A DNA stretch of 64,000 nucleotides from the NCBI RefSeq assembly GCF_900111015.1, contig NZ_FOFS01000006.1:1-64000 (forward strand), read 5' to 3'. Under the pieces are notes generated by a model, which was not told where the DNA came from, searched no databases, and was given only the letters and a program-made list of their open reading frames with translations. The position numbers and the translations under genes are program-made. The DNA comes from Solimonas aquatica. GTDB taxonomy: Bacteria > Pseudomonadota > Gammaproteobacteria > Nevskiales > Nevskiaceae. Shown piece after piece: positions 2,414-25,625 of the stretch; the first letter of the stretch is position 1; every line of letters begins with the position of its first letter.

Positions 2414-3646
2414 ATGCAGGCGCGCATGCTGCAGCAGCACGCCTACATCGCCGGCGTCGGCATGACCGCGTTCGCGCGGCATGCCGGGCGCGGCCTGAAG
2501 AGCCTGGGCGCGGAAGCCCTGCGCCTGGCGCTGGCCGATGCCGGCCTGGAACCGCAGAGCGTGCAGGCTGCGTATCTGGCCAACGCCGCCGCACCGCTGG
2601 TGACGGGACAGAGCGCGGTGGGCGGTCAGGTCCTGCTGCGCGAGCTGGGCATCGGCGGCATCGCAGTGGTGAACGTGGAGAACGCCGATGCCGGCGGCGC
2701 CACGGCCTTTCATCAGGCCTGCGCCATGGTCAGCGCCGGCTACTACGATGTGGTGCTGGCCTGTGCCTACGAAAAACTGCATCAGGCCGATGCCGCACGC
2801 GCCGATGCTGCCCTGGGCAATGCCCTGGACGTGGAGCGCGCCGACGAGCTGCAGCAGCTGCTGCGGCAGAAGCTGCGCGACGCCGGGCTGCCCAGCAGCG
2901 GCAGCTGCCGTCTGGATCTGCTGGGCGTCTGGGCCTGGCGGCACATGCACGCGCATGGCACCACGCGCGAGCAGCTGGCGCAGGTGGTGGTGAAGAACGC
3001 GCAGCACGCGATGGCCAATCCCTACGCGGCGCTGCGCGAGCGCGTGCACGCCGATGCCCTGCTCGCTGCGCCCCTGCTCACAGGCCCGCTGGGTGCGGGC
3101 ATGTGCGCGCCGCTGGTGGATGGCGCCGCCGCCGCCGTGGTGGTGAGTCCGCGCAAGCTGCGCGAACTGGGCCTGCGCCGCGCCGTGCGGGTGCGCGCCT
3201 CGGTGCTGGCCAGCGGCTGGGAGACGCAGGACGAGGACGATATCCACGCCGCCGAACAGGTCGCGCAGCGCGCCTACACCAAGGCCGAGATCGGCCCGCA
3301 GGATCTGCACTGCATCGAGCTGCATGATCCCAGCGCCGCCTGCGAGATTCTCTATTACGAACACCTGGGCCTGTGTGCGCCGGGCGAAGGCGGCGAGCTG
3401 CTGGACAGCGGCGCCACGCGCCTGGGTGGCCGCCTTCCGGTGAATCCCTCCGGTGGCCTGCTGCGGCGCGGACACGCCGGCGCGGCCTCCGGCATGGCGC
3501 AGATCGCCGAGCTGGTCTGGCAGCTGCGCGGCGAGGCCGGCGCGCGTCAGGTGCAGAAAGCCAGACTGGCGCTGGCGCACAGCGGCGGCGGCGTGGTGGG
3601 TCGCGAGGTCGCGGCCATCGTCATCAATATTCTCGAATCCGCCTGA
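2414..3646 (+). CDS. Thiolase-fold (SCP-x/Ltp-type) protein lacking the active-site cysteine
   Basis: A 410-residue member of the thiolase superfamily nearest to SCP-x lipid-transfer thiolases: an N-terminal YIAGVGMTAF, an ENADAGGATAF segment where thiolases carry the nucleophile loop, HDPSAACEI, then NPSGGLLRRGHAGAASG. The position normally held by the reactive cysteine (VENACASG in thiolases) is Asp92 here. Cysteine-less members such as Ltp2 are retro-aldolases that shorten steroid side chains together with a DUF35 partner; no DUF35 protein is adjacent here, the next gene being DUF3237. So thiolytic activity is unlikely, and an aldolase or other C-C bond reaction is plausible. The gene begins 6 bases after the previous stop. 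Confidence 0.85.
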   Translation: MQARMLQQHAYIAGVGMTAFARHAGRGLKSLGAEALRLALADAGLEPQSVQAAYLANAAAPLVTGQSAVGGQVLLRELGIGGIAVVNVENADAGGATAFHQACAMVSAGYYDVVLACAYEKLHQADAARADAALGNALDVERADELQQLLRQKLRDAGLPSSGSCRLDLLGVWAWRHMHAHGTTREQLAQVVVKNAQHAMANPYAALRERVHADALLAAPLLTGPLGAGMCAPLVDGAAAAVVVSPRKLRELGLRRAVRVRASVLASGWETQDEDDIHAAEQVAQRAYTKAEIGPQDLHCIELHDPSAACEILYYEHLGLCAPGEGGELLDSGATRLGGRLPVNPSGGLLRRGHAGAASGMAQIAELVWQLRGEAGARQVQKARLALAHSGGGVVGREVAAIVINILESA

Positions 3647-3670
3647 GCGCGGCTTGCACCGGAGATGGCC

Positions 3671-4129
3671 ATGCATCGCTACGAGATGCCGCATCTGTTC
3701 TCTTACAGCGCCACGCTCGCGCCGCCGGAAGTGATCGGCCCGGTGCCGGAAGGCCTGCGCGTGAACTTCTACATCACCGGCGGCGAGCTGCGCGGCCCGC
3801 TGGCCTGCGGTCGCTTGCGGCCGGTGGGCGCCGACTGGGTGCTGCTGAGCCGCGACGGCGTGGGCCACATGAACGTGCGCGCCACCGCCGAACTCCAGGA
3901 CGGCGCGCTGGTGTACCTGCAGTACACCGGCATCCTCGATCTGGGCACAAACGGCTACGAGGACTTCATCGCCGGTCGCCTGCCGCCGCGCGCGGCGCTG
4001 CGCACCAGCATCCGCATGAGCACCGCGCATCCCGAGCACGCGCAGCTCAACCGCCTGCTCTGCATCGGGGTCGGCGAAGCGGACTTCGGCAGCTTGAGCG
4101 TGGACTACGACGTTTACGCCGTCCGCTGA
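3671..4129 (+). CDS. DUF3237 domain-containing protein
   Basis: A small protein of 152 residues that matches the DUF3237 family in length and pattern: an N-terminal EMPHLFSYSATL strand, then GGELRGPLACGRLRPVGADW, and a C-terminal strand ending YDVYAVR. The family is often encoded beside catabolic dehydrogenases; its biochemical role is not established. I choose the second ATG: GGAG at 3661-3664 lies 6 bases before it, whereas the first ATG at 3665 directly abuts that sequence. It may be an accessory factor for the thiolase-like protein encoded just before it, but that is only inferred from position. Confidence 0.75.
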   Translation: MHRYEMPHLFSYSATLAPPEVIGPVPEGLRVNFYITGGELRGPLACGRLRPVGADWVLLSRDGVGHMNVRATAELQDGALVYLQYTGILDLGTNGYEDFIAGRLPPRAALRTSIRMSTAHPEHAQLNRLLCIGVGEADFGSLSVDYDVYAVR

Positions 4130-4212
4130 GAGCCGCCCCTTCCTTGGAAGGGGCCGGAGGGCGCCCGCGTGGCGCAGACTGCGGGCAGCACAAGACCAAG
4201 AGGAGCTGGCGC

Positions 4213-5232
4213 ATGAGCACGCATCGTTGCTGGTATTTCAATCGTCGCCCGCGACACGAGATCGAGGCCGACACCCTGCAGCTGCGCGAGCTGCCGCGCG
4301 CGCCGCTCCAGGACGGCGAATTCCGCCTGCGCCATCTGTATCTGTCGCTGGATGCCACCAACCGCCTCTGGATCAGCGAATGGGATCTGTACATGCCGAC
4401 CATCGCGCCCGGCTCGCCGATGCTGGGCTTCGTGCTCGGCGAGGTGGTCGAGTCGCGTCATCCCGGTTTTGCGGTCGGCTCGCTGGCGGCGGGCCTGGCG
4501 CCCTGGGCCGATGAATCGGTGAGCACGGGCGAGGGTTTCTCGCCGATGCCGCGCATTCCCGGCCTGCCGCTGGCCGAGGCCTTCGGCATTCTCGCGGTGG
4601 CCGGACCTTCGGCCTATGTCGGCCTGATGGACATCGGCCGGCCCAAGCCGGGCGATACCGTGGTGGTCAGCGCCGCCGCCGGTGCGGTGGGCATGATCGT
4701 CGGACAGCTGGCCAGGATTCACGGCTGCCGCGTGATCGGCGTGGCGGGCGGCGCGGAAAAGTGCCGCTGGCTGAAAGACGAACTCGGCTTCGACGCGGTG
4801 GTCGATTACCGGCAAGGCGATCTGCTGGGCCAGCTGCGCCAGGCCGCGCCCGAGGGCATCGACCTGCATTACGAAAACGTGGGCGGCGAGATTCTCGACG
4901 CCGCGCTCAGCTGCATGAACAACTTCGGCACCGTGGTGGTCTGCGGCCTGATCGCCAGCTACAACGCCGGCAGCGATCCGGTGCCGGGTCCCTACATGTT
5001 CCGCAATGTGATCATGCGCCGCCTGCGCATCGAAGGTTTCGTGGTGCTGGATCATCTCGACAAGTATCCGCAGTACCAGCAGAAGCTCGCCGCCTGGATG
5101 CTCGAAGGCAAAATCAAATACCGCCTGCATGTGGTGGACGGCCTAGCGCGCGCCAGCGAGGCGCTGAAGCTGCTCTACACCAGCGGCAATCAGGGCAAGC
5201 TCATGGTGCGCATCGGCGCCGAGCCGGCCTGA
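4213..5232 (+). CDS. NADP-dependent oxidoreductase, CurA/prostaglandin reductase type (MDR superfamily)
   Basis: A zinc-independent medium-chain reductase of 339 residues. The N-terminal part contains LYLSLDATNRLWISEW, typical of CurA and leukotriene B4 12-hydroxydehydrogenases (family pattern YLSLDPYMRGRM). The nucleotide-binding core is VVVSAAAGAVGMIVGQLA followed by HGCRVIGVAGGAEKC, and YENVGGEILDAALSCMN is the usual downstream motif. It should reduce the C=C bond of an enone or 2-alkenal-type intermediate with NADPH. An AGGAG lies 7 bases before this ATG; the frame is open further upstream, but only this start fits the family N-terminus. It closes the metabolic part of the operon. Confidence 0.9.
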   Translation: MSTHRCWYFNRRPRHEIEADTLQLRELPRAPLQDGEFRLRHLYLSLDATNRLWISEWDLYMPTIAPGSPMLGFVLGEVVESRHPGFAVGSLAAGLAPWADESVSTGEGFSPMPRIPGLPLAEAFGILAVAGPSAYVGLMDIGRPKPGDTVVVSAAAGAVGMIVGQLARIHGCRVIGVAGGAEKCRWLKDELGFDAVVDYRQGDLLGQLRQAAPEGIDLHYENVGGEILDAALSCMNNFGTVVVCGLIASYNAGSDPVPGPYMFRNVIMRRLRIEGFVVLDHLDKYPQYQQKLAAWMLEGKIKYRLHVVDGLARASEALKLLYTSGNQGKLMVRIGAEPA

Positions 5233-5239
5233 GCCCCCC

Positions 5240-7945
5240 ATGGTCCGCAGCGCGCGTCTGGATGCCGGTCCCGCCGCCAACGACGGCGCCGCGCCGCAGG
5301 CCGGGGCGCTGGTGCTGCGTCGCGAAGCCCTGCAGCGCCTGCAGCAGCATCGCGAGCTGCGCCTGATCGTGGTGCAGGCGCCGGCGGGCTTCGGCAAGAC
5401 CAGCCTGCTGCAGCAGTACTGCGAGCTGCGCGCCGCGCAGGGCGATGCCGTGGCCTGGCTGCGCGTGGACCTGCACTGCGCCGACGCCTCGCAGTTCCTG
5501 CGCGCGCTCTGCGAGGCCTTGCGCGGCGGCGCGGCGCCGCGCGGTCGCGGCGCGCGGCGGCCGAGCACGCTGGAGGATCTCGCCAGCCTGCTGCGCGCCC
5601 AGAGCGGGCGCCTGCTGCTGGTGATCGACAACTTCGAGCAGGCCAGCGGCGCGGCGCTCGACGGTCTGCTCGGCCAGCTGGTACGCCTGCTCAAGCCCGG
5701 CATGCAGCTGTGTCTGGGCACACGCGTGCTGCCGGGTCATCGGCTGTCGCGACTGCTGATCGAAGAACAGAGCCTGCTGCTGGACGCCGAGGCGCTGCGC
5801 TTCTCGGCGGCGGAGAGCACCGAGTTCCTGCGCGACAGCGCCATGCTCAGCGCCCGGGAAATCACCGAGCTGCACGAGCGCTGCGATGGCTGGCCGGCGG
5901 CGCTGCAATGCCTGCGCCTGTGCCTGCGCCGGGGCCGCAGCCAGCGCAGCCTGGCTTTTGCCGGACGCGGCATCACGCCGGAGCTGATCGACTTTCTCGC
6001 CGCCGAAGTCTTCGAGCAGCTGGCGCCCGAGCTGCAATCGCTGCTGCTCGAACTCTGCGTGCCGGAGAAGCTCAGCGCGGCGCTGGTCGAACACATCAGC
6101 GCGCGCGGCCAGGGTCGCGAGCAGCTGGCGCGGATCGAGAAGGCCGGACTGTTCCTGGCGCAGGCCGATCTGCAGCGGCACTGGTACCGCTTCCACAATC
6201 TGTTCCGGCATTTTCTGCTGGCGCGCCTGCGCAGCGAGACCTCGGATCAGGAGATGCAGGCCCGTCACGGCCGCATCGCGCAGTGGTATGAGCAGCACGG
6301 CTTTCGCGAGGAGGCGATCCAGCACTATCTGGACGCACAGCGCCAGGACGAGGCCGCGCGCCTGCTCAGCCAGATCATCGACAGCCTGATCGCCGAAGAG
6401 CGCCTGGGTCTGGTGGAGCGCTATGTCGAGCAGCTGCCGGTGGACAGCCTGCTGGCCAGCGAGGCCTTGTGCGAGGCAGCGATCATCGCCTATGGCTTTC
6501 GCCGCAGCTTCGACAAGGCGCACCGCCTCATCGAGCGTCGCGCCGCGCATCTGCAGACGCAGCACGCCGACGCGCACACCCTGGCGCGCCACCACAGCAC
6601 GCGCCTGTTCGTGCTCGCCGCGCAGGACCGCATCGAAGAGATGGGCCAGTGCGCCGGGCACTGCCTGCAGCATCTGGATGCGCGCGACGGCTACCGCTAC
6701 GCGGTGAGTCTCAACGCCCGCTCCATGGCCTGCGTGGGCCGCTCCGACTTCGATCAGGCGCGCAGCCTGTGCCTGCAGGCCCGCCCCCTGCACGACCGCG
6801 AGCGGCATCTGTTCGGCCAGGCTTATCAGGAAGCCATCCACGCCATGACGCTCAGCGCCCAGGGCCGCATCGTGGACGCGCAGCGCTGCCTGTCCGCCGC
6901 CCTGCACCACACCGAGCAGGAAGCCGCCGGCAGCGTCAGCGCCGGCTCGGTGCTGGCCGCGTATCTGGCGGAAGCCTGTTACGAGCAGAACCGCATCACC
7001 GAGGCCGAAGGCCTGATTCACGACTACGCGCAGCTCGCCGAACAGCAGGCCATCGCCGATCCGCTGGCGGTGATGCTGCTCACGCAGGCGCGCATCGCGC
7101 ACCTGCGCGGCGACGAGGCGGAGGCCGAGGAAATCCTGGAGCGCCTGCTGTACCTGGGCTACCGCCATGGTTACACACGCCTGCTCAGCTACGCGCGCGC
7201 CGAGTTCGTGCGCCAGGCCACGCTGTCCGGTGACCTGGACCGCGCTGAGCGACGCTTGCGCGAACTGGATCCCGAGCACGATGCCACGCTGGCCGGGCCG
7301 CTGCTGTTTCACGCCGGCGAGAACGAAGCGCATGGCATCAGCCTGGCGCGCTATCTGATTCACAGCGGCCGCCATGCGCAGGCACGCACCGCGCTGCAGG
7401 CGCAGATCCGCGAGGCGCGGCAGCAGCGCCGTCGCCGGCGCGAACTCAAGCTCAGCCTGCTGCTGGCGATCTCCCTGCACAACGAGGGCCGCGAGGCGGC
7501 GGCGCGGCGCGCGATGCTGGAAACCCTGAGCCTGGGCACGCCGCAGGAATTCATCCGCAGCATTCTCGACGAGCGCGCGCCGGCGCTGCGCCTGCTGCGC
7601 GAGCTGGGCGGCGGCCTGCAGCAGCTGCCGGAGCTGTCCGAACGCGACAGCCTGCAGGCCTATCTGGAGCATCTGCTGCGCGAGGCCGGCGACAAGCCCC
7701 TGCCCGCGCCCGCCTGCCAGGTCGCGCGTCCGCCCAGCGCCGAGCTGCTGGCCAGCCTCACCGAGCGCGAGAAACGCCTGCTGCGGCACGTCGCCACGGG
7801 ACTTTCCAATCGCGAGCTGGCCGAGCGCCTGTCGGTGTCCACCAACACCGTGAAGTGGCATCTGCGCAACATCTTCGAGAAGCTGCAGATCGGCAATCGC
7901 GTACAGGCCATCGCGCTGGCACGGCATCTGGGTCTGATCGACTAG
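5240..7945 (+). CDS. LuxR family transcriptional regulator, MalT-like (LAL type)
   Basis: A 901-residue large ATP-binding LuxR regulator. A P-loop (APAGFGKTSLL, residues 47-57) and Walker B (LLLVIDNFEQ) form an N-terminal STAND-type ATPase. A long helical TPR-like region follows, and a C-terminal LuxR helix-turn-helix (LTEREKRLLRHVATGLSNRE through NTVKWHLRNIFEKL) lies in the last 70 residues. Such proteins are usually inducer- and ATP-dependent activators. The gene starts 8 bases after the CurA-type reductase, so it is probably co-transcribed and autoregulates the SDR-to-reductase operon, possibly sensing a CoA ester or pathway intermediate. It ends 11 bases from the convergent MarR gene. Confidence 0.93.
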   Translation: MVRSARLDAGPAANDGAAPQAGALVLRREALQRLQQHRELRLIVVQAPAGFGKTSLLQQYCELRAAQGDAVAWLRVDLHCADASQFLRALCEALRGGAAPRGRGARRPSTLEDLASLLRAQSGRLLLVIDNFEQASGAALDGLLGQLVRLLKPGMQLCLGTRVLPGHRLSRLLIEEQSLLLDAEALRFSAAESTEFLRDSAMLSAREITELHERCDGWPAALQCLRLCLRRGRSQRSLAFAGRGITPELIDFLAAEVFEQLAPELQSLLLELCVPEKLSAALVEHISARGQGREQLARIEKAGLFLAQADLQRHWYRFHNLFRHFLLARLRSETSDQEMQARHGRIAQWYEQHGFREEAIQHYLDAQRQDEAARLLSQIIDSLIAEERLGLVERYVEQLPVDSLLASEALCEAAIIAYGFRRSFDKAHRLIERRAAHLQTQHADAHTLARHHSTRLFVLAAQDRIEEMGQCAGHCLQHLDARDGYRYAVSLNARSMACVGRSDFDQARSLCLQARPLHDRERHLFGQAYQEAIHAMTLSAQGRIVDAQRCLSAALHHTEQEAAGSVSAGSVLAAYLAEACYEQNRITEAEGLIHDYAQLAEQQAIADPLAVMLLTQARIAHLRGDEAEAEEILERLLYLGYRHGYTRLLSYARAEFVRQATLSGDLDRAERRLRELDPEHDATLAGPLLFHAGENEAHGISLARYLIHSGRHAQARTALQAQIREARQQRRRRRELKLSLLLAISLHNEGREAAARRAMLETLSLGTPQEFIRSILDERAPALRLLRELGGGLQQLPELSERDSLQAYLEHLLREAGDKPLPAPACQVARPPSAELLASLTEREKRLLRHVATGLSNRELAERLSVSTNTVKWHLRNIFEKLQIGNRVQAIALARHLGLID

Positions 7946-7955
7946 CGCGTCCGCC

Positions 7956-8486
7956 TCAACCCGAGGCCTTTTTCTTCCGTCCTGATGAAGCCTGCGGCGC
8001 AGCGGCGCCCGGCCCCCCATCCTGCAAGCGCTCCAGCTCGGCCAGCACCCTCAGCCCCTTGAACAGCGCATCCCACTGCGCCGGCCCCAGGTGCTTGAGC
8101 AGGTCGTCCTGCGCGCGACGCCAGTGCGGCAGGGCTTTTTCCAGCGAGGCGAAACCCTTGGGCGTCAGGCGCACCAGACGGTGCCGCGCATCCTCGCCAG
8201 CCACCACTTCCAGATGCCCGCTGCGCTCCAGCAGCTGCACATTGCGGGCCACCGTGGTGCGCTCGGTCTCCAGGGCCCGTGCCAGGCGCGACATCTTCAC
8301 CTCGCCGAAGTAGTACAGGCGGATCAGCAGCGAGAACTGCGCGATACCGATATCCGTGCCGCCCAGATACTCGTTGTAGAGCTTGGTGATGCTGCGGTTG
8401 GCCGAGCGCAGTTGCTCGGAAAAGCAGACGTGCCGGCGATTCCGCACGTCCTCCAGATAGGGCAGGTGATAGCGCTTGGCTTTCAT
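7956..8486 (-). CDS. MarR family transcriptional regulator
   Basis: A winged-helix regulator of 176 residues: an N-terminal dimerisation helix, the recognition region KMSRLARALETERTTVARNVQLLE, the wing DARHRLVRLTPKGFASLEKA, and a lysine-rich tail. It is divergent from the acetylene-hydratase-like gene. A perfect palindrome (8491-8502) lies 5-16 bases in front of this start codon, so MarR binding would block its own translation-initiation region and the divergent promoter. No Shine-Dalgarno sequence is visible before this ATG, so the mRNA may be leaderless or the true start may be slightly downstream. It probably represses the Mo/W enzyme and carboxylase cluster until a ligand appears. Confidence 0.9.
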   Translation of the reverse strand: MKAKRYHLPYLEDVRNRRHVCFSEQLRSANRSITKLYNEYLGGTDIGIAQFSLLIRLYYFGEVKMSRLARALETERTTVARNVQLLERSGHLEVVAGEDARHRLVRLTPKGFASLEKALPHWRRAQDDLLKHLGPAQWDALFKGLRVLAELERLQDGGPGAAAPQASSGRKKKASG

Positions 8487-8490
8487 ATCA

Positions 8491-8502
8491 GTGTATATAC
8501 AC
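8491..8502. promoter_or_regulatory. Perfect 12-bp palindrome, probable MarR operator
   Basis: GTGTATATACAC is a perfect palindrome in the 59-base gap between the divergent MarR gene and the Mo/W enzyme gene. It is AT-rich and overlaps TATATAC, which resembles a -10 element. Its position next to a MarR gene is typical of an autoregulatory operator. Confidence 0.6.
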
Positions 8503-8545
8503 GTACATTACGGTGCACTCAAAACGAAACGGTCCAGGAATCCTC

Positions 8546-10792
8546 ATGCCCGGCTCACCCTCCATCATGCCCTCCGCCGTCGGCAGCCGCAGCCTGCCCC
8601 GCGCCCATCCACGGCCCGGCGTCGAGACCCGCAAGGCCTTGTGCGCGAGCTGCGACATCGCCTGCAGCGTGGTGACCGAGGTGCAGAAGGGCCGCGTCAC
8701 CCGCGTGCGCTCCTCGGACAATCCGCTGTTCAAGGACAACATCTGCGTCAAGGGCATCACCGCGCCCAAGAACTTCGCCAACCCCGAGCGCGTGCTGTAT
8801 CCGCAAAGGCGCGTCGGCGAACGCGGCTCCGGGCAATGGCAGCGCGTGAGCTGGGAAGAGGCGATGGCCGACATCGGCGCGCGCCTCAAGACCATCATCG
8901 CGCAGCACGGGCCGGAAGCCTGGGCCGTGTCCACCAGCCAGTGGAACACCGGCACCGATCACGGCCTGGGCCGCCGCATCATGAATCACATCGGCTCTCC
9001 CAACTGGATCAGCGGCGTGGCGCTGTGCGCCGGCAATACCGCGGCGGTCAATCGCCTGACCTACGGCTGGTTCCCCTGGCCGGATTACGACAACACCCAT
9101 TGCATCGTGCTGTTCGGCCACAACCCGGGCCGGAACTCCTGGGTGCCGATCTACAACCAGATCCAGCGCGTCAAGGCGCGCGGCGGCAAGCTGATCGTGC
9201 TCGACCCGCGCAAGAGCGAGTGCGCGGCGATGGCCGATCTGTGGCTGCCGCTGAAGGTGGGCACCGACACCGCGATGATGATGGGCTGGCTCAAGGTGAT
9301 CCTGGACGAGCGGCTCTACGATGAGGACTTCGTGGCGCGCTGGACCATCGGCTTCGAGGACCTGCGCCGCCGCGTCGATGAGTTTCCGCTGTCGCGCGTG
9401 GCGCAGATCACCGGCGTGTCGGCGGAGCTGATCGCCAAGGCCGCGCGCCTGTACGCCTCGCAAGGCCCTTCGGTGATTCCCTGGACACCGATCACCGATC
9501 AGCAGCGCAACAGCACCTCGGGCATCCGCCTGCACAGCATCCTGCGCGCGGTCTGCGGCTACCTGGACGTGCCGGGCGGCGAGGCCCTGATGGGCTTTCA
9601 TCCGGACATCGTGCCGGAGTCGGCCGTCGAGATGCACGAGGTCTTGCCGGAGGCGCAGAAGGCCAAGCAGCTGGGCGCGGATCAGCATCCGGTCTTCACC
9701 TATCGCGGCCAGGCCGCGTTGCGCGAGCCCCTGAGGCGGGTCTGGGGCCATGAGTACGCCAACCAGGCCACCGGCTGCTACATGGCCAATCCCTCGGCGG
9801 TGTTCCGCGCCATGGCCGGACAGGGGCCGTACCCGGTCAAGGCGCTGTTCTCCATCGGCAACAACACCCTGCTCGGCTTTGCCAACATGCCGCTGATTCT
9901 CAAGGCGCTGCTGAACCAGGAGCTGATCGTGGTGCAGGAGCACGTGATGACGCCCACCGCGCAGCTGGCCGACTACGTGCTGCCCGGCGACTCCTGGCTG
10001 GAGCGGCCCTGGATGTTCGATGGCTATGGCTGGCTGTCCCTCTACAAGCCCTCGCAGAAATCCATGGAGCCGCCCGGCGAGTGCAAGAGCACCTTCGAGT
10101 TCTGGAAGCTCGTCGCCGGCGCGCTGGACCGTCCGGAGCTGGTGCCCTGGCCGACGCTGGAGGCCTTCTACGACTGGCGGCTCAAGGGTCTGGGCGTGGC
10201 CTTCGAGACCTTTGCCAGCGTCTACGAGGTGCACGCCGACAAGCTGGAATTCCGCAAGTACGAGAAGACCGGTTTCGCCACGCCCAGCGGCAAGGTGGAA
10301 CTGCGCTCCTCGATTCTGGAAAGCCTGGGCTTCGATCCCCTGCCCTACTGGCGCGAGGACCCGCCGCCCGATCCCGAGTATCCGCTGATGATGTTCACCG
10401 GCGTGCGCGAGGCCGAGTACTTCCAGACCGGCGGCCGCCACGTGCCGGAGCTGCGCGCGCGCAAGCCCGAGCCGCAGCTGTTCATCAGCCCCGCCACCGC
10501 CCGCGCGCAGGAGCTGCAGGAAGGCCAGTGGGTGGTGGTGGAGACGCGCACCGGGCGCGTCGACATCCAGGTCAGCATCCGCGACACCATGCCCGACAAT
10601 CTGGTGCGCATCCCGCACGGCTGGTGGAAGCCGGAAACCGCGCAGGGCCTGGGCACGCTGTCCGGCGCCCTGCAGTACGCCGACGCGCAGCTGTGCGGCG
10701 ACGAGGGCGATTACCTCGATCACGAGCAAGGCATTCCGCATCTCAAGGGCCTGCCCTGCCGCATCGTGAAGAAGCCGGAGGCGCTGGCATGA
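8546..10792 (+). CDS. Acetylene hydratase-like Mo/W-bis-MGD enzyme (DMSO reductase superfamily)
   Basis: A 748-residue cytoplasmic-looking enzyme with no Tat signal. The N-terminal [4Fe-4S] motif uses C33, C36, C40 and C67; Asp37 directly follows C36 and Lys69 lies two residues after C67, as Asp13 and Lys48 do in acetylene hydratase of Pelobacter acetylenicus. C161 matches the tungsten-ligand Cys141; W199 and W313 match Trp179 and Trp293 at identical spacing (+38, +152). The equivalents of Ile113 and Ile142 are Trp133 and Ala162, so the substrate pocket differs. Known members hydrate acetylene or transfer hydroxyl groups without net redox change. The ATG at 8546 has AGGAA 5 bases upstream; a GTG at 8513 is an alternative. 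Residue numbers of the reference enzyme are from memory. Confidence 0.85.
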   Translation: MPGSPSIMPSAVGSRSLPRAHPRPGVETRKALCASCDIACSVVTEVQKGRVTRVRSSDNPLFKDNICVKGITAPKNFANPERVLYPQRRVGERGSGQWQRVSWEEAMADIGARLKTIIAQHGPEAWAVSTSQWNTGTDHGLGRRIMNHIGSPNWISGVALCAGNTAAVNRLTYGWFPWPDYDNTHCIVLFGHNPGRNSWVPIYNQIQRVKARGGKLIVLDPRKSECAAMADLWLPLKVGTDTAMMMGWLKVILDERLYDEDFVARWTIGFEDLRRRVDEFPLSRVAQITGVSAELIAKAARLYASQGPSVIPWTPITDQQRNSTSGIRLHSILRAVCGYLDVPGGEALMGFHPDIVPESAVEMHEVLPEAQKAKQLGADQHPVFTYRGQAALREPLRRVWGHEYANQATGCYMANPSAVFRAMAGQGPYPVKALFSIGNNTLLGFANMPLILKALLNQELIVVQEHVMTPTAQLADYVLPGDSWLERPWMFDGYGWLSLYKPSQKSMEPPGECKSTFEFWKLVAGALDRPELVPWPTLEAFYDWRLKGLGVAFETFASVYEVHADKLEFRKYEKTGFATPSGKVELRSSILESLGFDPLPYWREDPPPDPEYPLMMFTGVREAEYFQTGGRHVPELRARKPEPQLFISPATARAQELQEGQWVVVETRTGRVDIQVSIRDTMPDNLVRIPHGWWKPETAQGLGTLSGALQYADAQLCGDEGDYLDHEQGIPHLKGLPCRIVKKPEALA

Positions 10793-10995
10793 AGCCCTAC
10801 TACCGGCGCGAGGCCATGGCCAAGATCGCCTTTGCGCTGGCCAAGAAGGCCTCGCGCAACCAGACCTGGTTCGACCGCCTGGCGCGCCGCATCCTGGAGC
10901 GCGTGCTGCACTTCAACTTCGATCTCGACGAGATGGTGATCGCCGACCAGGGCTACGATCCCGACGAGCTGACGCGTTACCAGAAAGGCCTGTAG
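10789..10995 (+). CDS. Small basic protein of unknown function in the Mo/W enzyme-carboxylase cluster
   Basis: A 68-residue protein whose ATG overlaps the TGA of the Mo/W enzyme gene (ATGA), indicating translational coupling. It begins MKPYYRREAMAKIAFALAKK, contains a basic amphipathic stretch and ends with an acidic segment (NFDLDEMVIADQGYDPDEL). I do not recognise a family. The coupling suggests an accessory or small subunit of the Mo/W enzyme, or a link to the carboxylase. A 100-base gap with a new ribosome-binding site separates it from the gamma-type subunit gene. Confidence 0.7.
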   Translation: MKPYYRREAMAKIAFALAKKASRNQTWFDRLARRILERVLHFNFDLDEMVIADQGYDPDELTRYQKGL

Positions 10996-11095
10996 GCAGG
11001 CCGCCTGCCGCCGACTCTCCTTCCGGGTGGTGCCAGCGCCCCGGCGCACTGCCAAGCTCTCCTGGTGTCGTCACCAGAACAAGGAGGAGCCCGCC

Positions 11096-11524
11096 ATGCG
11101 AGTGCTGATCACCGAAAACCTGCGCATCGACCTGGACAGCGAGCTGTGGGAATGCCGCCACTGCGGCAAGGCGCTGATCTCGGCGCGCGAGAACTACAAG
11201 CGCGGCCTGCTGGTCTACAACCGCGATCCGCGCGAGATTCACAAGCCGCTGCTGGACCCGGCGAAGTACGCGCTCACCTACTCGCCCAATCCCGACTGGT
11301 GCCGCATTCTCGAATACTACTGCCCGCGCTGCGGCAGCATGATCGAGACCGAATACCTGCCGCCCGGCCATCCGCCGGTGCATGACATCCAGCTCGACAT
11401 CGATGCGCTCAAGGCGCAGTGGCGGGACCGTGCCGAAGTCCGCGAGCACGCGCCCGGCGCCGATGCCGGCCTGGACAAGCTGCTGAGCCAGCGCGCCGTG
11501 CACGCGCGCACGCACTCGCACTGA
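11096..11524 (+). CDS. Acetone carboxylase gamma subunit-like protein
   Basis: A 142-residue protein with two CxxC pairs (C20/C23 in WECRHCGKAL and C76/C79 in YYCPRCGSM), expected to bind zinc as in the gamma subunit of acetone carboxylase (family Acetone_carb_G, about 140-170 residues). The block YKRGLLVYNRDPREIHKPL is also typical. In known complexes gamma joins the HyuA-like and HyuB-like subunits to carboxylate ketones with ATP. I choose this ATG because AAGGAGGA lies just upstream; the frame is open to 11027. The next gene starts 13 bases downstream. Confidence 0.82.
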   Translation: MRVLITENLRIDLDSELWECRHCGKALISARENYKRGLLVYNRDPREIHKPLLDPAKYALTYSPNPDWCRILEYYCPRCGSMIETEYLPPGHPPVHDIQLDIDALKAQWRDRAEVREHAPGADAGLDKLLSQRAVHARTHSH

Positions 11525-11537
11525 ACGGGAGGCGGCC

Positions 11538-13673
11538 ATGAAACGCGTCTCCGTGGACATCGGCGGCACCTTCACCGACTGCTTCGTGGCCTGGGACGGC
11601 CGCTGCATCGAGAGCAAGGCGCTGACCACGCATCACAATCTGGCCCTGGGCTTCAACGAGGCGCTGCGCAATGCCTGCGCGGAACTGGCCCTGAGCGAAT
11701 ACGAGCTGCTCTCGCAGGTGGACTCGGTGCGCTACGCCACCACCCTGGGCACCAATGCCCTGATCCAGCGCAAGGGCCCGCGCCTGGGCCTGCTCACCAC
11801 CGCCGGCTTTCGCGCCTCGGTGCCGCTGGCACGCGCCAAGGGTTATGGCGTGGGCCTGCCGCATGCGCAGCAGATGGACGTGCCCAATGCGCAGCGGCCC
11901 GAGCCCATCGTGCCCTTGCCGATGATCGTGGAAGTGCGCGAGCGCATCGACTACGCAGGCCAGGTGGTGATGGCTCTGGACGAGGAACAGCTGCGCGAAG
12001 CGCTGCGCACGCTGGTGGACAAGGGCGCGGAAACCCTGGTGGTGGTGCTGGCCAATTCCGTGGTCAATCCCGCGCACGAGCTGCGCATCCGCGAGATCTT
12101 TCTCGACGAATACCCCGGCCACATGCTCGGCGCCATTCCCATGCTGCTCTCGCACCAGGTGGCCGGCCGCAAGGGCGAGTACGTGCGCGCCATGTCCACC
12201 ATCCTCGATGGCTTCCTGCATCAGGTGATGTACCACGGCCTGGGCACGCTGGAACTCAATCTGCGCGAGGCCGGCTATCGCAAGCCCATGCTGGTGAATC
12301 ACAACTCCGGCGGCATGGCGCAGCTCAATTCCACCGACGCGCTGCAGACCGTGCATTCCGGGCCGGTGTCCGGCATCGCCGCCGGCGAGCATCTGGCCCT
12401 GCAGGCGCAGCTGGGCAATATCGTCGCCACCGACATGGGCGGCACCAGCTTCGACATCGGCATCGTGGTGGAAGGCGGCGTCAAGCATTACGACTTTAAT
12501 CCGGTGATCGAGCGCTGGATGGTCAGCGTGCCCATGGTGCATCTGGTCACGCTCGGCGCCGGGGGCGGTTCGATCTGCAGCTACGACCGCATGTTCGGCA
12601 GCGTGCAGGTGGGGCCGGACAGCGCCGGCTCCGATCCGGGACCGGCCGCCTATGATCGCGGCGGCCTCAAGCCCACGGTCACCGATGCCGATCTGCTGCT
12701 GGGTTATCTGGACCCCGCGCATTACGCCGGCGGCCGCATCAAGCTCCATGCGCGGCGCGCACGCCAGGCCATCGAGGACGAACTGGCCGAGCCGCTGGAC
12801 GTGTCCGCGATCGAAGCCGCCAAGCGCATCAAGTCCACGGTCGACGCCAACATGGCCAATGGCATCGCCCGCGAGCTGCGCACGCGCGGCTACGAGCCCG
12901 AGCACTTCACCATCCTCGCCTACGGCGGCAACGGCCCCCTGCATGCCTGCGGCATCGCCCGCGCCCTGGGCGTGCGGCGCATCCTCGCGCCGCCGTTTGC
13001 CTCGGTGTTCTCGGCGGTGGGCGCCGGCAACATGAGCCAGCTGCACATCCACGAGAAGAGCTGCTGGACCACGCTGTTCGACGCCAGCCAGCAGCGCTTC
13101 TTCAGCGACTATGCGCAATTCAATGCCGTGGTCGAGGAGCTGGAGCAGCGCGGTCGCGACGACCTGTTGCGGCAGGGCTTCGCGGCGGAGCAGATCCGTT
13201 ATCGGCTGGAGCTGGACATGCGCTACGGCAATCAGCGCGTGGAAACCGCCGTGGTCACGTCACTCAATCGCCTCACCGAGCCCGAGCAGGTGCTGCAGCT
13301 GATCGAGCAGTTCCATGCCCGCTACGGCGAGCGCTTCGGCCAGGGCAGCCAGACCCCGGAAGCCGGCGTGCGCATCAACACCATCCGCGTCTGCGCCCAT
13401 GTCGAGCATCCCGGCATCGCCTTCGCCGACATCCGGCCGCAGGGCGAGCCGCTGCCGCCACCGCCGCCGCGCGCGCATCGCGACTGCCATTTCGTCGGCC
13501 ATGAAGGCGCGATCCGCACCGCGATCTACGACGAGGCGGCCTTGACGGTGGGCACGCAGATCGACGGGCCCGCCATCGTGGTCACGCGCGCCACCACTTA
13601 CCTGATCGAACCCGGCTGGCGTTATCGCGCTGCAGCGCAGAACGCCGTGTGGTTCACGCGTCTGGATCACTGA
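11538..13673 (+). CDS. HyuA-type subunit (hydantoinase/oxoprolinase, acetone carboxylase beta-like)
   Basis: A 711-residue ATP-dependent subunit of the hydantoinase A/oxoprolinase family. The start VDIGGTFTDCFVAWDG is the phosphate-binding motif of the actin-like ATPase fold; NSGGMAQL, HSGPVSGIAAG and ATDMGGTSFDIGIV are further conserved blocks. With a gamma-type gene before and a HyuB-type gene after, the set corresponds to acetone/acetophenone-type carboxylases rather than to a hydantoinase, which lacks a gamma subunit. It would activate bicarbonate or the enol of the ketone by phosphorylation. Ribosome-binding sequence GGGAGG precedes the ATG. Confidence 0.9.
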   Translation: MKRVSVDIGGTFTDCFVAWDGRCIESKALTTHHNLALGFNEALRNACAELALSEYELLSQVDSVRYATTLGTNALIQRKGPRLGLLTTAGFRASVPLARAKGYGVGLPHAQQMDVPNAQRPEPIVPLPMIVEVRERIDYAGQVVMALDEEQLREALRTLVDKGAETLVVVLANSVVNPAHELRIREIFLDEYPGHMLGAIPMLLSHQVAGRKGEYVRAMSTILDGFLHQVMYHGLGTLELNLREAGYRKPMLVNHNSGGMAQLNSTDALQTVHSGPVSGIAAGEHLALQAQLGNIVATDMGGTSFDIGIVVEGGVKHYDFNPVIERWMVSVPMVHLVTLGAGGGSICSYDRMFGSVQVGPDSAGSDPGPAAYDRGGLKPTVTDADLLLGYLDPAHYAGGRIKLHARRARQAIEDELAEPLDVSAIEAAKRIKSTVDANMANGIARELRTRGYEPEHFTILAYGGNGPLHACGIARALGVRRILAPPFASVFSAVGAGNMSQLHIHEKSCWTTLFDASQQRFFSDYAQFNAVVEELEQRGRDDLLRQGFAAEQIRYRLELDMRYGNQRVETAVVTSLNRLTEPEQVLQLIEQFHARYGERFGQGSQTPEAGVRINTIRVCAHVEHPGIAFADIRPQGEPLPPPPPRAHRDCHFVGHEGAIRTAIYDEAALTVGTQIDGPAIVVTRATTYLIEPGWRYRAAAQNAVWFTRLDH

Positions 13674-13687
13674 ACCGGAGTATCCGA

Positions 13688-15934
13688 ATGGACGACATCA
13701 CCCTCAGCGCGCGCCAGCAGGCCCTGCTCGACCGCTTCCTGCACGAGAACAAGCTGTTCTATGCGCCCGACCCTTCGATCATGGAGAACCATCGCATCGC
13801 GCCGCGCAGCGAACTCGAGGAACGCCTGCTCAGCCAGCCTCTGGACCGACAGAAGATCAACGAGCTGCGCGGCCTGATCGTGGCGGCGCTCGACGAAAGC
13901 CACACCATGATCGAGCAGATGGGCGCAGCGCCCGGCGCCAAGTGGGGCGATATGACCACCGCCATCTTCACCGCCGCCGGCGACCTGTCGATGATCGCGC
14001 CGCATGGCGTGGGCGGCTTTGCCGCCGCCGTGTTCTACCCGATCAAGTTCATCATCAAGCACTGGATTCCCGAGCCCACGGTCGGCGTGCGCGAGGGCGA
14101 TGGCTTCATCCACAACGATGCGCGCTACGGCGGCATCCACAACACCGATCAGTCGATGATGATGCCGGTGTTCTGGAAGGGCGAGATCGTGTGCTGGCTC
14201 TCGGCCACCATCCACGAAGGCGAGAACGGCGCCTGCGAACCCGGCGGCATGCCGGCGGCGGCGGAAAGCAAGTTCGATGAAGGTTTGAAGATGCCGCCGT
14301 TCAAGGTGGTGGAGAACTTCGAGCTGAAGCGCGATCTGGTCACCTTCCTGCAGAACTCGGTGCGCGACCCCAAGCTGCAGCTGGAAGACATGAAGGTGCG
14401 CCTGCACTCGGTGCTGCGCCTGCGCGAGCGCGTGCTCAAGATTCTGGAGGCCTTCGGACCCGAGGCCCTGGTCAGCACCCTGCGCGTGCACATCGAGGAC
14501 GTGGTGACGGAAGTGCGGCGGCGCATCGCCGAGCTGCCGGACGGCACCACGCGCACCGTGTCCTTCGCCGATTCCACGCTGCGCGAGAACGCCCTGCTCA
14601 AGCTCAACATGGCGATCACCGTGCAGGGCGAGAAGATGATCGTGGACATGCGCGGCAGCTCGCCGGAGCTGCTGAACCGCTCCATCAATGCCTGCCAGGC
14701 CTCGTTCAAGACCATGCTGTTCACCGGCTTCATGCAGAACATCTGGCCGGACCTGCCGTTCACCATGGCGGTGTTCACGCCTTTTGATTTCATCTTCGAC
14801 GAGAAGTCGCTGATCAACGGCTCCTTCGACACGCCGCAGGCCATGAGCCTGATTCCGCTGTTCAAGACCATGACCATCGCCTGCATTCCGATGGCCAAGT
14901 TCAACTACAGCCTGCCGCAGCGCTACACCGCGATGGTGGCGCCGCAGTACGACCAGCCGGCAACCCTGATCTACGGCGGCCTCACCCAGCACAGCGAATA
15001 CGTGGGCAACTTCTGCGCCGACATCAACGGCATGGGCCAGGGTGGACGCAGCCATCGCGACGGCGAGCATTCGGTGTCACCGCCGTTTGCCGCGCACTGC
15101 GATCTGGGCGAGATCGAGCTGATGGAGGAAGACCTGCCGATGGTGCGTCTGGGCGCCTTCACCCTGGCCCGGGATCGCGTCGGCTTCGGCAAGCAGCGCA
15201 GCGGCCTGGGCTACGAGCAGATCCACACCTATCGCAACTCGGGCCTCTGGGGCTTCATGACCGGCTGCTCGGGCTCGCTGTTCTGCTCGGCGCAGCCCCT
15301 GTTCGGCGGCTATGCCTCGCCCACCTATCCGCTGTGCAAGGTCAAGGGCGTGAACGTCTTCGAGTTCCTGGCGCAACAACCGGAAGCGCTGCCGCTGGAC
15401 ATCGTGCGCATCATGAACGAGCAGCCGATTCCCGGCGCCAGCTACTCCACGCACGACATGGGCATGACCTTCGAGCTGGCCGCGCCCGGCGAGCTGTACA
15501 TGATGTGTCAGGGCGCCGGCGGCGGTTACGGCGATGTGCTGCAGCGCGATCCGCAGCTGGTGATGAAGGATCTGGAGGAAGACCTGATCTCGGACGCCAC
15601 CGCGCGCGAAATCTACCAGGTGATCTACGACCCGGCCTCGCGCGTGGTGGACGAGGCGGCCACCGAGCGCGCACGCGCGGCCGAGCGGCAGGCCCGTCTG
15701 GCGCGCGGCAAGCCGTATGACGCCTTCCTGGCCGAATGGCAGACGCCGGCGCCGCCGGCGCATCTGCCCTTCTTCGGCTGCTGGGATGATGCGACCGTGG
15801 TCTACGGCGTGAGCATGGGGCAGCGCGTGAAGATGGACGGCAAGGCCCTGTCCAGCATGTTCATGCTCAATCCCAAGGACCTGCGCATCGCCGAACTCGA
15901 AGCGCAGCTCAAGGCGGCGCTGGCCAGACCTTGA
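13688..15934 (+). CDS. HyuB-type subunit (hydantoinase B/oxoprolinase, acetone carboxylase alpha-like)
   Basis: The large partner subunit, 748 residues. Typical blocks are WGDMTTAIFTAAGDL, the glycine- and histidine-rich GDGFIHNDARYGGIHNTDQS, and HEGENGACEPGG. In acetone carboxylase the corresponding subunit holds the metal site where carboxylation occurs. The start at 13688, 14 bases after the HyuA stop, follows CCGGAG; the frame is open to 13649 inside the previous gene, but that extension does not fit the family. The length is near that of acetone carboxylase alpha. Together the three subunit genes and the hydratase-like gene form one regulated cluster behind the MarR operator. Confidence 0.9.
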   Translation: MDDITLSARQQALLDRFLHENKLFYAPDPSIMENHRIAPRSELEERLLSQPLDRQKINELRGLIVAALDESHTMIEQMGAAPGAKWGDMTTAIFTAAGDLSMIAPHGVGGFAAAVFYPIKFIIKHWIPEPTVGVREGDGFIHNDARYGGIHNTDQSMMMPVFWKGEIVCWLSATIHEGENGACEPGGMPAAAESKFDEGLKMPPFKVVENFELKRDLVTFLQNSVRDPKLQLEDMKVRLHSVLRLRERVLKILEAFGPEALVSTLRVHIEDVVTEVRRRIAELPDGTTRTVSFADSTLRENALLKLNMAITVQGEKMIVDMRGSSPELLNRSINACQASFKTMLFTGFMQNIWPDLPFTMAVFTPFDFIFDEKSLINGSFDTPQAMSLIPLFKTMTIACIPMAKFNYSLPQRYTAMVAPQYDQPATLIYGGLTQHSEYVGNFCADINGMGQGGRSHRDGEHSVSPPFAAHCDLGEIELMEEDLPMVRLGAFTLARDRVGFGKQRSGLGYEQIHTYRNSGLWGFMTGCSGSLFCSAQPLFGGYASPTYPLCKVKGVNVFEFLAQQPEALPLDIVRIMNEQPIPGASYSTHDMGMTFELAAPGELYMMCQGAGGGYGDVLQRDPQLVMKDLEEDLISDATAREIYQVIYDPASRVVDEAATERARAAERQARLARGKPYDAFLAEWQTPAPPAHLPFFGCWDDATVVYGVSMGQRVKMDGKALSSMFMLNPKDLRIAELEAQLKAALARP

Positions 15935-25033: not shown

Positions 25034-25471
25034 TCAGCTCAGCCGCGTGCGCCAGTCGCCATCCCTGAACGCCGCCAGCAAGAGCTTCGCGCGGCCTTCG
25101 TTGAGCTGCTCATAGGACTGGCCGCGCGAGAAGAAATCATTGAGCCCGGGAATGCGCAGCAGATCCAGCGCGCTGATCTCGCCGTGCCCCATGGTCCATT
25201 CGCCGAAATCGCGCTGCGCGATGCGCTCGACGATCAGCTTGTTGATCCGCACATGACGCGGATCGGTCGCGATCTTGTCGAACAGGGCCTCCACCTGCGA
25301 GCGCTCGCCTTCGAGAATCTGGAAGAACGAGCCCTTTTCGAACAGCAGCATGCCGGTGACACCGTGTGCCTGGTTGTTGGTGCGACACACCTTCAGCAGC
25401 TCGTCGAGTTCCTTGCGCCCGAAAGCCGGACTGCGCGCGGCACTCGTGTAGATACAGTGGACCAGCTCCAT
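25034..25471 (-). CDS. BLUF domain blue-light photoreceptor (stand-alone)
   Basis: A short 145-residue protein made of one BLUF domain, which binds FAD and senses blue light. Key residues are Tyr8 in HCIYTSAAR, Asn32/Asn33 in RTNNQAHGVTGMLLF, Gln51 in GSFFQILEGE and Trp92 in FGEWTMG, at nearly the same numbers as in cyanobacterial Slr1694. About 50 residues form the C-terminal cap. There is no output domain, so it must act through a partner protein. The start at 25471 is chosen since AAGG lies 6 bases before it; another ATG at 25477 is in frame. Confidence 0.92.
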   Translation of the reverse strand: MELVHCIYTSAARSPAFGRKELDELLKVCRTNNQAHGVTGMLLFEKGSFFQILEGERSQVEALFDKIATDPRHVRINKLIVERIAQRDFGEWTMGHGEISALDLLRIPGLNDFFSRGQSYEQLNEGRAKLLLAAFRDGDWRTRLS

Positions 25472-25625
25472 TGGCATCCTTGCAATCAGCCCGTAAAAGA
25501 CGAAGCGGCCCGCACACGGGCGCGCTCCTGCGAGCTAGCTATCGGGGCGATCCACGGCGAAAGAAGACAGCCCAGGGTGAACGGCGGCAAAAGGGGGATT
25601 GAGCGGCAAGGCTGGCCTCGCGCAC

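Follow-up and report, generated by a model that had tools for sequence, protein, structure and literature searches.

The window analysed here is a stretch of 64,000 nucleotides from Solimonas aquatica (contig NZ_FOFS01000006.1, positions 1 to 64,000), whose genome comprises 4.43 Mb in 31 contigs. It carries a gene for a molybdenum/tungsten enzyme related to acetylene hydratase (AH), termed MoE below, a gene of 68 codons termed o68, and three genes for a ketone-carboxylase-type complex. The relation between these genes is the subject of this analysis. An original prediction, made from the DNA letters, had read positions 8491-15934 as a single operon in which the AH-like enzyme could form a ketone that the complex carboxylates. 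Between 3373 and 15934, the plus strand has the genes for alcohol dehydrogenase (ADH), a MalT/LuxR regulator, MoE, o68, gamma, HyuA and HyuB; the gene for a MarR-family regulator lies on the minus strand. The features are given below (ORF, open reading frame; L and G numbers in the text are our designations of the compared loci and genomes).

4213-5232, plus strand: zinc-type ADH/enone reductase-like gene (Pfam ADH_N_2 and ADH_zinc_N); approximate start, inside ORF 3373-5232
5240-7945, plus strand: MalT/LuxR-type regulator of 901 residues (Pfam PF17874 and PF00196)
7956-8486, minus strand: MarR-family regulator (PF12802/PF01047), divergent from the MoE gene
8491-8502, no strand: perfect palindrome GTGTATATACAC in the gap between MarR and MoE, probable MarR operator, found in 9/9 such gaps
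8546-10792, plus strand: MoE, Mo/W enzyme of the AH subfamily; start ATG 8546 likelier, alternative start GTG 8513
10789-10995, plus strand: o68, partner gene of 68 residues, its ATG overlapping the MoE stop codon
11020-11032, plus strand: GGGTGG(T/G)G box upstream of the carboxylase operon, conserved ahead of other carboxylase operons, with a presumed role
11096-11524, plus strand: carboxylase gamma-type subunit (ApcB-like) with two CxxC pairs (PF08882, 129 bits)
11538-13673, plus strand: HyuA/ApcC-like ASKHA subunit (PF05378/PF01968/PF19278, far over cut-off)
13649-15934, plus strand: HyuB/ApcD-like subunit with HxxD...H metal ligands (PF02538, far over cut-off)

The comparison of MoE with solved structures by phmmer gave AH (2e7z) as the best match with 645 bits, and the next structure reached 203 bits. 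The identity between MoE and 2E7Z was 43% in the sequence alignment and 42% in the structural alignment. The AlphaFold model of MoE had a mean predicted local distance difference test (pLDDT) value of 93.5 and matched 2e7z with a Z of 52.4, a root mean square deviation of 1.4, 712 aligned residues, and a TM-score of 0.96; the next entry had a Z of 35.9. Pyrogallol-phloroglucinol transhydroxylase (4v4c) was considered and rejected: it reached 24 bits and Foldseek rank 41, where AH reached 645 bits and rank 1. The phylogenetic tree of 66 rows was built by a quick method using all kept columns, with the Shimodaira-Hasegawa approximate likelihood ratio test (SH-aLRT) as its only support measure, without bootstrap, and with group labels picked from the residue signature. 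A branch with an SH-aLRT of 100 set 32 rows, the window and 2e7z among them, apart from the remainder. The phylogeny that the original prediction had proposed as a check therefore groups the enzyme with AH and not with redox oxidoreductases. Within this group, 2e7z was joined by three Eggerthellales rows, and the window fell with 25 other rows into a mainly proteobacterial clade of 26 rows (Nevskiaceae, Zavarzinia, Zhongshania, Sphingomonadaceae, Yoonia, Variovorax, Cupriavidus, Afipia, and others), which also holds one Acidobacteria and one Binatota metagenome-assembled genome.

The start at ATG 8546 yields exactly the residue numbering of the original prediction, and its five matches, Asp37, Lys69, Cys161, Trp199, and Trp313, align precisely with Asp13, Lys48, Cys141, Trp179, and Trp293 of AH; in the numbering of the whole ORF, Asp13 and Cys141 correspond to Asp48 and Cys172. 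All four [4Fe-4S] cluster cysteines are retained. Residues were counted in 31 AH-clade rows (window included) and 33 other relatives. Asp13, located in the cluster motif CxxCDxxxC, was present in 31/31 AH-clade rows and 0/33 others, Trp179 in 31/31 and 1/33, Trp293 in 31/31 and 12/33, and Lys48 in 31/31 and 21/33 (the remaining others have Arg). The metal ligand Cys141 was found in 31/31 and 33/33 rows and is therefore not discriminating; Lys48 likewise does not separate the clade from the other relatives. The original prediction had named, as grounds for abandoning it, the sharing of its Asp and Cys matches by all family members; this is true of Cys and untrue of Asp. Sequence, tree, signature residues, and predicted structure all mark MoE as a true member of the AH subfamily. 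That it is a redox molybdoenzyme merely resembling AH might be read from broad hidden Markov models for formate dehydrogenase- and thiosulfate reductase-like enzymes, whose scores with MoE all stayed under cut-off. This reading is very improbable, as AH is the best match in both sequence and structure and the Asp13/Trp179 signature sets the AH clade apart from the 33 other relatives; it was rejected on the 2e7z score and Z value given above. MoE matches occurred in 4/369 genomes of a class sample and 3/398 of a phylum sample (own genome included; the samples may overlap), and one class-level match, G098 (37%), lacked the AH signature.

The pocket of MoE differs from that of AH. The alignment gives Trp, Ala, and Tyr at AH positions 113, 142, and 472, and Trp133 and Ala162 (numbered from ATG 8546) align with Ile113 and Ile142, in agreement with the two pocket isoleucines pointed out originally. 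Trp113 and Ala142 were each observed in 24/31 AH-clade rows. The hydrophobic ring of AH, which we take to be Ile14/Ile113/Ile142/Trp179/Trp293/Trp472, is kept in MoE at Ile14, Trp179, and Trp293 and changed at 113, 142, and 472, so that it is incomplete. Presumably, Ile142 is the pocket isoleucine that has been mutated in AH. The accessible text of a review reports a marked activity loss when an isoleucine of the AH pocket is exchanged for Ala, and also that derivatives of acetylene are no substrates of AH (PMC6013536). Because Ile113 is replaced by Trp and Ile142 by Ala, the substrate of MoE is probably not acetylene; these residues suggest that it is probably another alkyne or unsaturated compound.

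The alternative of a genuine acetylene hydratase that works under aerobic or microaerobic conditions, with W or Mo as the metal and acetaldehyde as the product, agrees with the retention in MoE of Asp13, Trp179, Trp293, Lys48, and the four cluster cysteines and with a clade member of 41% identity on a plasmid of Rhodococcus opacus, which the accessible part of PMC7858054 calls an aerobic acetylenotroph whose enzyme depends on Mo. It is nevertheless unlikely, given that three ring positions differ, including the Ile-to-Ala change that damaged AH, and that the R. opacus enzyme has Leu, not Ala, at position 142. The R. opacus DSM 44186 plasmid locus (L015) contains the AH-clade enzyme near a ferritin-like gene, FdxA, moeZ, and transposases; this enzyme is possibly the Mo-dependent aerobic acetylene hydratase of the species.

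The coupled gene of 68 residues described in the original prediction was recovered as the ORF at 10789-10995, which overlaps the MoE stop codon. No Pfam or NCBIfam match was obtained for o68. It was detected in 7/58 genomes of the family, the same seven that have MoE (Fisher test, 3e-9); a second, weak match in G013 (E 4e-4) was disregarded. The o68 alignment included 17 loci, and each genome was counted once in this alignment and in the neighbourhood counts, L084 and L075 being repeats of L073 and L020 as judged from contig and length. An acidic tail similar to o68 (FMxD...GY/EF...EL..Y, recognised by eye) is fused in frame to the AH-like enzyme in L081 (2380-2628) and at the C-termini in L092 and L093. 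These fusions suggest o68 as a bound subunit of MoE.

In the window, as in L018-L023, L076, and L077, MoE stands between MarR and o68, with the MarR homologue in the same position; the MarR/o68/MoE set was found in six other genomes of the family and two Zavarzinia species. The gap between MarR and MoE holds the perfect palindrome GTGTATATACAC in 9/9 of these loci, and one perfect copy was found in the genome as searched. With its 14-base form and up to two mismatches allowed, the genome showed the MarR-MoE site and one two-mismatch site at 25445 only. A two-mismatch palindrome occupies 25446-25457 of the window, ahead of an ORF at 25599. The palindrome was not found in the examined clade loci with other regulators, except for one site elsewhere in L089; L155 also holds it (L155-L157 were left out of the neighbour counts). 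In more distant loci, a divergent HxlR-type regulator takes the place of MarR (L082 and L085 by Pfam; L072, L078, L080, and L083 by similarity), and o68 is retained; the regulator is thus swapped while the partner gene is kept. MarR, MoE, and o68 form a self-contained cassette, which is small, patchily distributed, and has probably moved horizontally.

Other genes recur around MoE in parts of the clade. A fatty-acid desaturase gene was located near MarR-MoE in L018 (10270-11100), L019, L020, and L077, representing three Nevskiaceae and one Zavarzinia. In L089 (Cupriavidus sp. 2SB) and L090 (plasmid pVarWS11_iso of Variovorax sp. WS11), genes for an AMP-ligase and a periplasmic binding protein lie ahead of MoE and an enoyl-CoA hydratase gene lies behind it; in L089, another copy of MoE is located roughly 10 kb upstream. 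The text of the Variovorax WS11 isoprene paper contains no mention of acetylene or molybdopterin. Bacterial acetylenases belong to the fatty-acid desaturase superfamily, and an acetylenic fatty substrate is therefore conceivable. Another reading gives MoE a place in a pathway resembling beta-oxidation, where it would hydrate an acid or acyl-CoA that is unsaturated or acetylenic. This reading draws on the desaturase loci, on deeper clade members near acyl-CoA enzymes such as L089 and L090, and on the acyl-CoA dehydrogenases in L088 and L094. We regard it as quite unlikely: in the window, MoE has none of these genes as a direct neighbour, the gene surroundings differ between loci, and the query set was chosen from the same loci.

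The gamma, HyuA, and HyuB genes named in the original prediction were identified by PF08882, by PF05378/PF01968/PF19278, and by PF02538, respectively. The best solved matches came from acetophenone carboxylase: HyuA scored 524 bits with 5l9w_B against 293 bits with the acetone carboxylase beta subunit, HyuB 299 bits with 5l9w_A against 134 bits with 5m45_A, and gamma 124 bits with 5l9w_C against 43 bits with 5svb_C. The ASKHA motifs of HyuA, DIGGTFTD and DMGGTSFD (PHOSPHATE 1/2) and GSDPGP (ADENOSINE), and the four cysteines of gamma (CRHC and CPRC), both expected of the hydantoinase/ketone carboxylase family, are present, and the HxxD...H ligands of HyuB align with H150, D153, and H175 of acetone carboxylase. 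With these motifs intact in all three genes, the predicted ATP-dependent, ketone-carboxylase-type complex is borne out. The NCBIfam equivalog cut-offs for acetophenone carboxylase (Apc) were missed (151<250, 561<1500, and 330<1500). According to the accessible text of PMC5214803, Apc is marked by an alpha-prime subunit (apcA) and the order apcABCD(E).

The comparison set consisted of 13 other carboxylase loci (L058-L070), 12 from relatives and one being the second carboxylase copy in this genome. HyuA-type genes in the genome start at C9:12186, C9:225356, C11:324419, and C11:326868, and the second cluster (C11:324419-327710, L068) contains alpha-prime, gamma, HyuA, and HyuB; its HyuA is 73% identical to that of the window. 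Alpha-prime, a second HyuA, directly precedes gamma in 5/13 loci, and a HyuA-like gene follows HyuB in L064 and L066; elsewhere none was seen beside the operon. The gene content suggests that an acetophenone-carboxylase-like complex may work without alpha-prime.

A MalT homologue (51-56%) was found near the carboxylase in 7/13 other loci. It is directly followed by gamma in L063, L064, L065, and L070 and by alpha-prime-gamma in L058 and L060, and an ADH homologue lies next to MalT and the carboxylase in L058, L060, L063, L064, L069, and L070. A box T-N(0-2)-GGGTGG(G/T)G precedes the first carboxylase gene at -72 to -104 in 8/13 other operons, with an expectation of 0.019 per 300 bp. The window copy, at -74 from gamma, is the only such site in the 64 kb.

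Of 32 other AH-clade loci, none showed a gene for HyuA, HyuB, or gamma at a distance of up to 6.5 kb from MoE; the downstream DNA available was at least 2.9 kb in 26 of these loci and less in six. The carboxylase (at least 60% identity) was present in 27/58 genomes of the family, 25 of them without MoE; this corresponds to 2/7 genomes with MoE against 25/51 others (Fisher test, p = 0.43). One genome with both, G035, has them about 574 kb apart. From the missing carboxylase near MoE in other loci and the lack of co-occurrence, it was concluded that the cassette was probably inserted between the regulator and the carboxylase operon, and the carboxylase beside MoE looks more like a chance neighbour than the second half of one pathway. 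The explanation we favour, and hold to be rather probable, is that two independent units stand side by side: a MarR-controlled AH-type hydratase cassette and a separately regulated enzyme of the acetophenone carboxylase branch.

The competing joint pathway would have MoE hydrate a terminal alkyne in the Markovnikov sense to a methyl ketone, which the carboxylase would convert into a beta-keto acid destined for thiolysis; the insertion would have been kept for this route. Its chemistry is coherent, as the MoE product fits the carboxylase substrate on general grounds; the genes are co-directional with a gap of 100 bp between o68 and gamma, in which no plus-strand intrinsic terminator was found, and thiolase, short-chain dehydrogenase/reductase (SDR), and ADH genes lie upstream in the window. 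Against it, the adjacency is confined to this genome (0/32 other AH-clade loci), the two gene sets do not co-occur in the family, each has its own upstream element, no MarR palindrome being found ahead of gamma, and the carboxylase of relatives often accompanies ADH and MalT without MoE. A joint pathway accordingly has a low probability. The still more far-reaching idea, that the mainly proteobacterial W113/A142 clade with an obligate small partner hydrates substituted alkynes to methyl ketones and that the insertion assembled a new route from alkyne through ketone to beta-keto acid, appears quite improbable. The chemistry originally proposed is thus sensible and rests on adjacency in one genome only: a single operon joining hydration to carboxylation is not supported, in view of the separate upstream elements, the 0/32 adjacency, the lack of co-occurrence, and the relatives whose carboxylase follows MalT without the cassette.

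Several observations weigh against the reading of two independent units and its details. Since no plus-strand terminator was found in the 100 bp between o68 and gamma, read-through and partial co-expression are possible. About 3 kb separates MalT from gamma in L069. The box is absent in 5/13 other operons, including L058 with the closest HyuA (87%), and [GT] in its pattern was loosened to admit the window variant; as it does not track adjacent MalT (4/7 loci with MalT, 4/6 without), a link between the box and this regulator is only a guess. Insertion here rather than loss elsewhere is parsimony, not proof. In the AlphaFold models, residues 731-782 of the L081 fusion have pLDDT <50, and therefore docking of o68 is without structural support; the Trp144 loop (ORF numbering) is the least certain core part of MoE (pLDDT block 71).

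With two independent units, the locus could operate as follows. As long as substrate is lacking, MarR would occupy the palindrome and keep both divergent promoters shut, until an unsaturated compound or a derivative releases it. By analogy with the AH mechanism, as described in the accessible text of PMC12096430, MoE would be a [4Fe-4S] enzyme with Mo/W-bis-molybdopterin guanine dinucleotide (MGD) that hydrates a carbon-carbon multiple bond with no net redox change. The reduced metal, held by Cys172 (AH Cys141) and two MGD, would bind water, Asp48 (AH Asp13) would activate it, and Trp144 and Ala173 (ORF numbering) would line the substrate channel. The o68 protein may aid cofactor insertion or shape the enzyme. 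The gamma-HyuA-HyuB complex would act as an ATP- and metal-dependent ketone carboxylase without alpha-prime, normally placed behind a MalT-like regulator, on a ketone of other origin, the cassette having presumably entered between these two in this lineage.

Outside these units, DUF5938 and DUF3237 genes (1283-2407 and 3665-4129 of the window) are found amid SDR, thiolase, and ADH genes; together they possibly form a catabolic cluster. The PF12849 profile matched two genes in the genome. As this family also holds phosphate-binding proteins, the matches are uninformative on tungsten or molybdate uptake. The search of viral contigs gave no match.

According to the accessible parts of PMC12096430 and PMC6013536, biochemical characterisation has been achieved for a single acetylene hydratase, and the former describes an AH-like family with uncharacterised members. 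To this family, the present analysis adds the W113/A142 pocket class, the partner gene o68, and the palindrome. One Chloroflexi genome was reported to contain both an operon for acetone carboxylase and three genes similar to AH, and substrates were called unpredictable in the available text of PMC3971608. The openly available literature naming AH with acetone carboxylase or acetophenone carboxylase does not, in its accessible portions, join the two activities. A clade with the catalytic Asp and an altered pocket raises the question of whether AH-type chemistry can act on alkynes beyond acetylene, and the unnamed small gene that of whether such an enzyme needs a dedicated small protein. The carboxylase adjacency, if functional, would be a new alkyne route; the present evidence makes this unlikely, which is useful to state.

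Compared with known systems, MoE is most like the AH of Syntrophotalea (Pelobacter) acetylenica (2E7Z), to which it is 42-43% identical from end to end and with which it shares the fold, the Cys ligand, the [4Fe-4S] cysteines, Asp13, Lys48, Ile14, Trp179, and Trp293. It differs in Ile113->Trp, Ile142->Ala, and Trp472->Tyr, in the translationally coupled o68, and in the divergent MarR with its conserved palindrome, and the two enzymes belong to different subgroups of the AH clade. The enzyme on the R. opacus DSM 44186 plasmid (NZ_CP082159.1), 41% identical to MoE, has the AH signature residues; unlike MoE, it adjoins a ferritin-like protein and FdxA, and no o68 was found with it. The carboxylase is closest to the acetophenone carboxylase of Aromatoleum (5L9W), the best solved match for all three subunits, with the gamma-alpha-beta order of apcBCD, and is distinguished from it by having no alpha-prime (apcA) gene at the locus and no identified apcE. 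It shares with acetone carboxylase (5SVB/5M45) the three-subunit composition and the HxxD...H ligands of the HyuB-like subunit, at lower similarity (293, 134, and 43 bits) and with the order gamma-alpha-beta instead of alpha-beta-gamma; the window gamma is without the N-terminal extension of about 50 residues, its residue 16 aligning with residue 68 of the acetone carboxylase gamma subunit.

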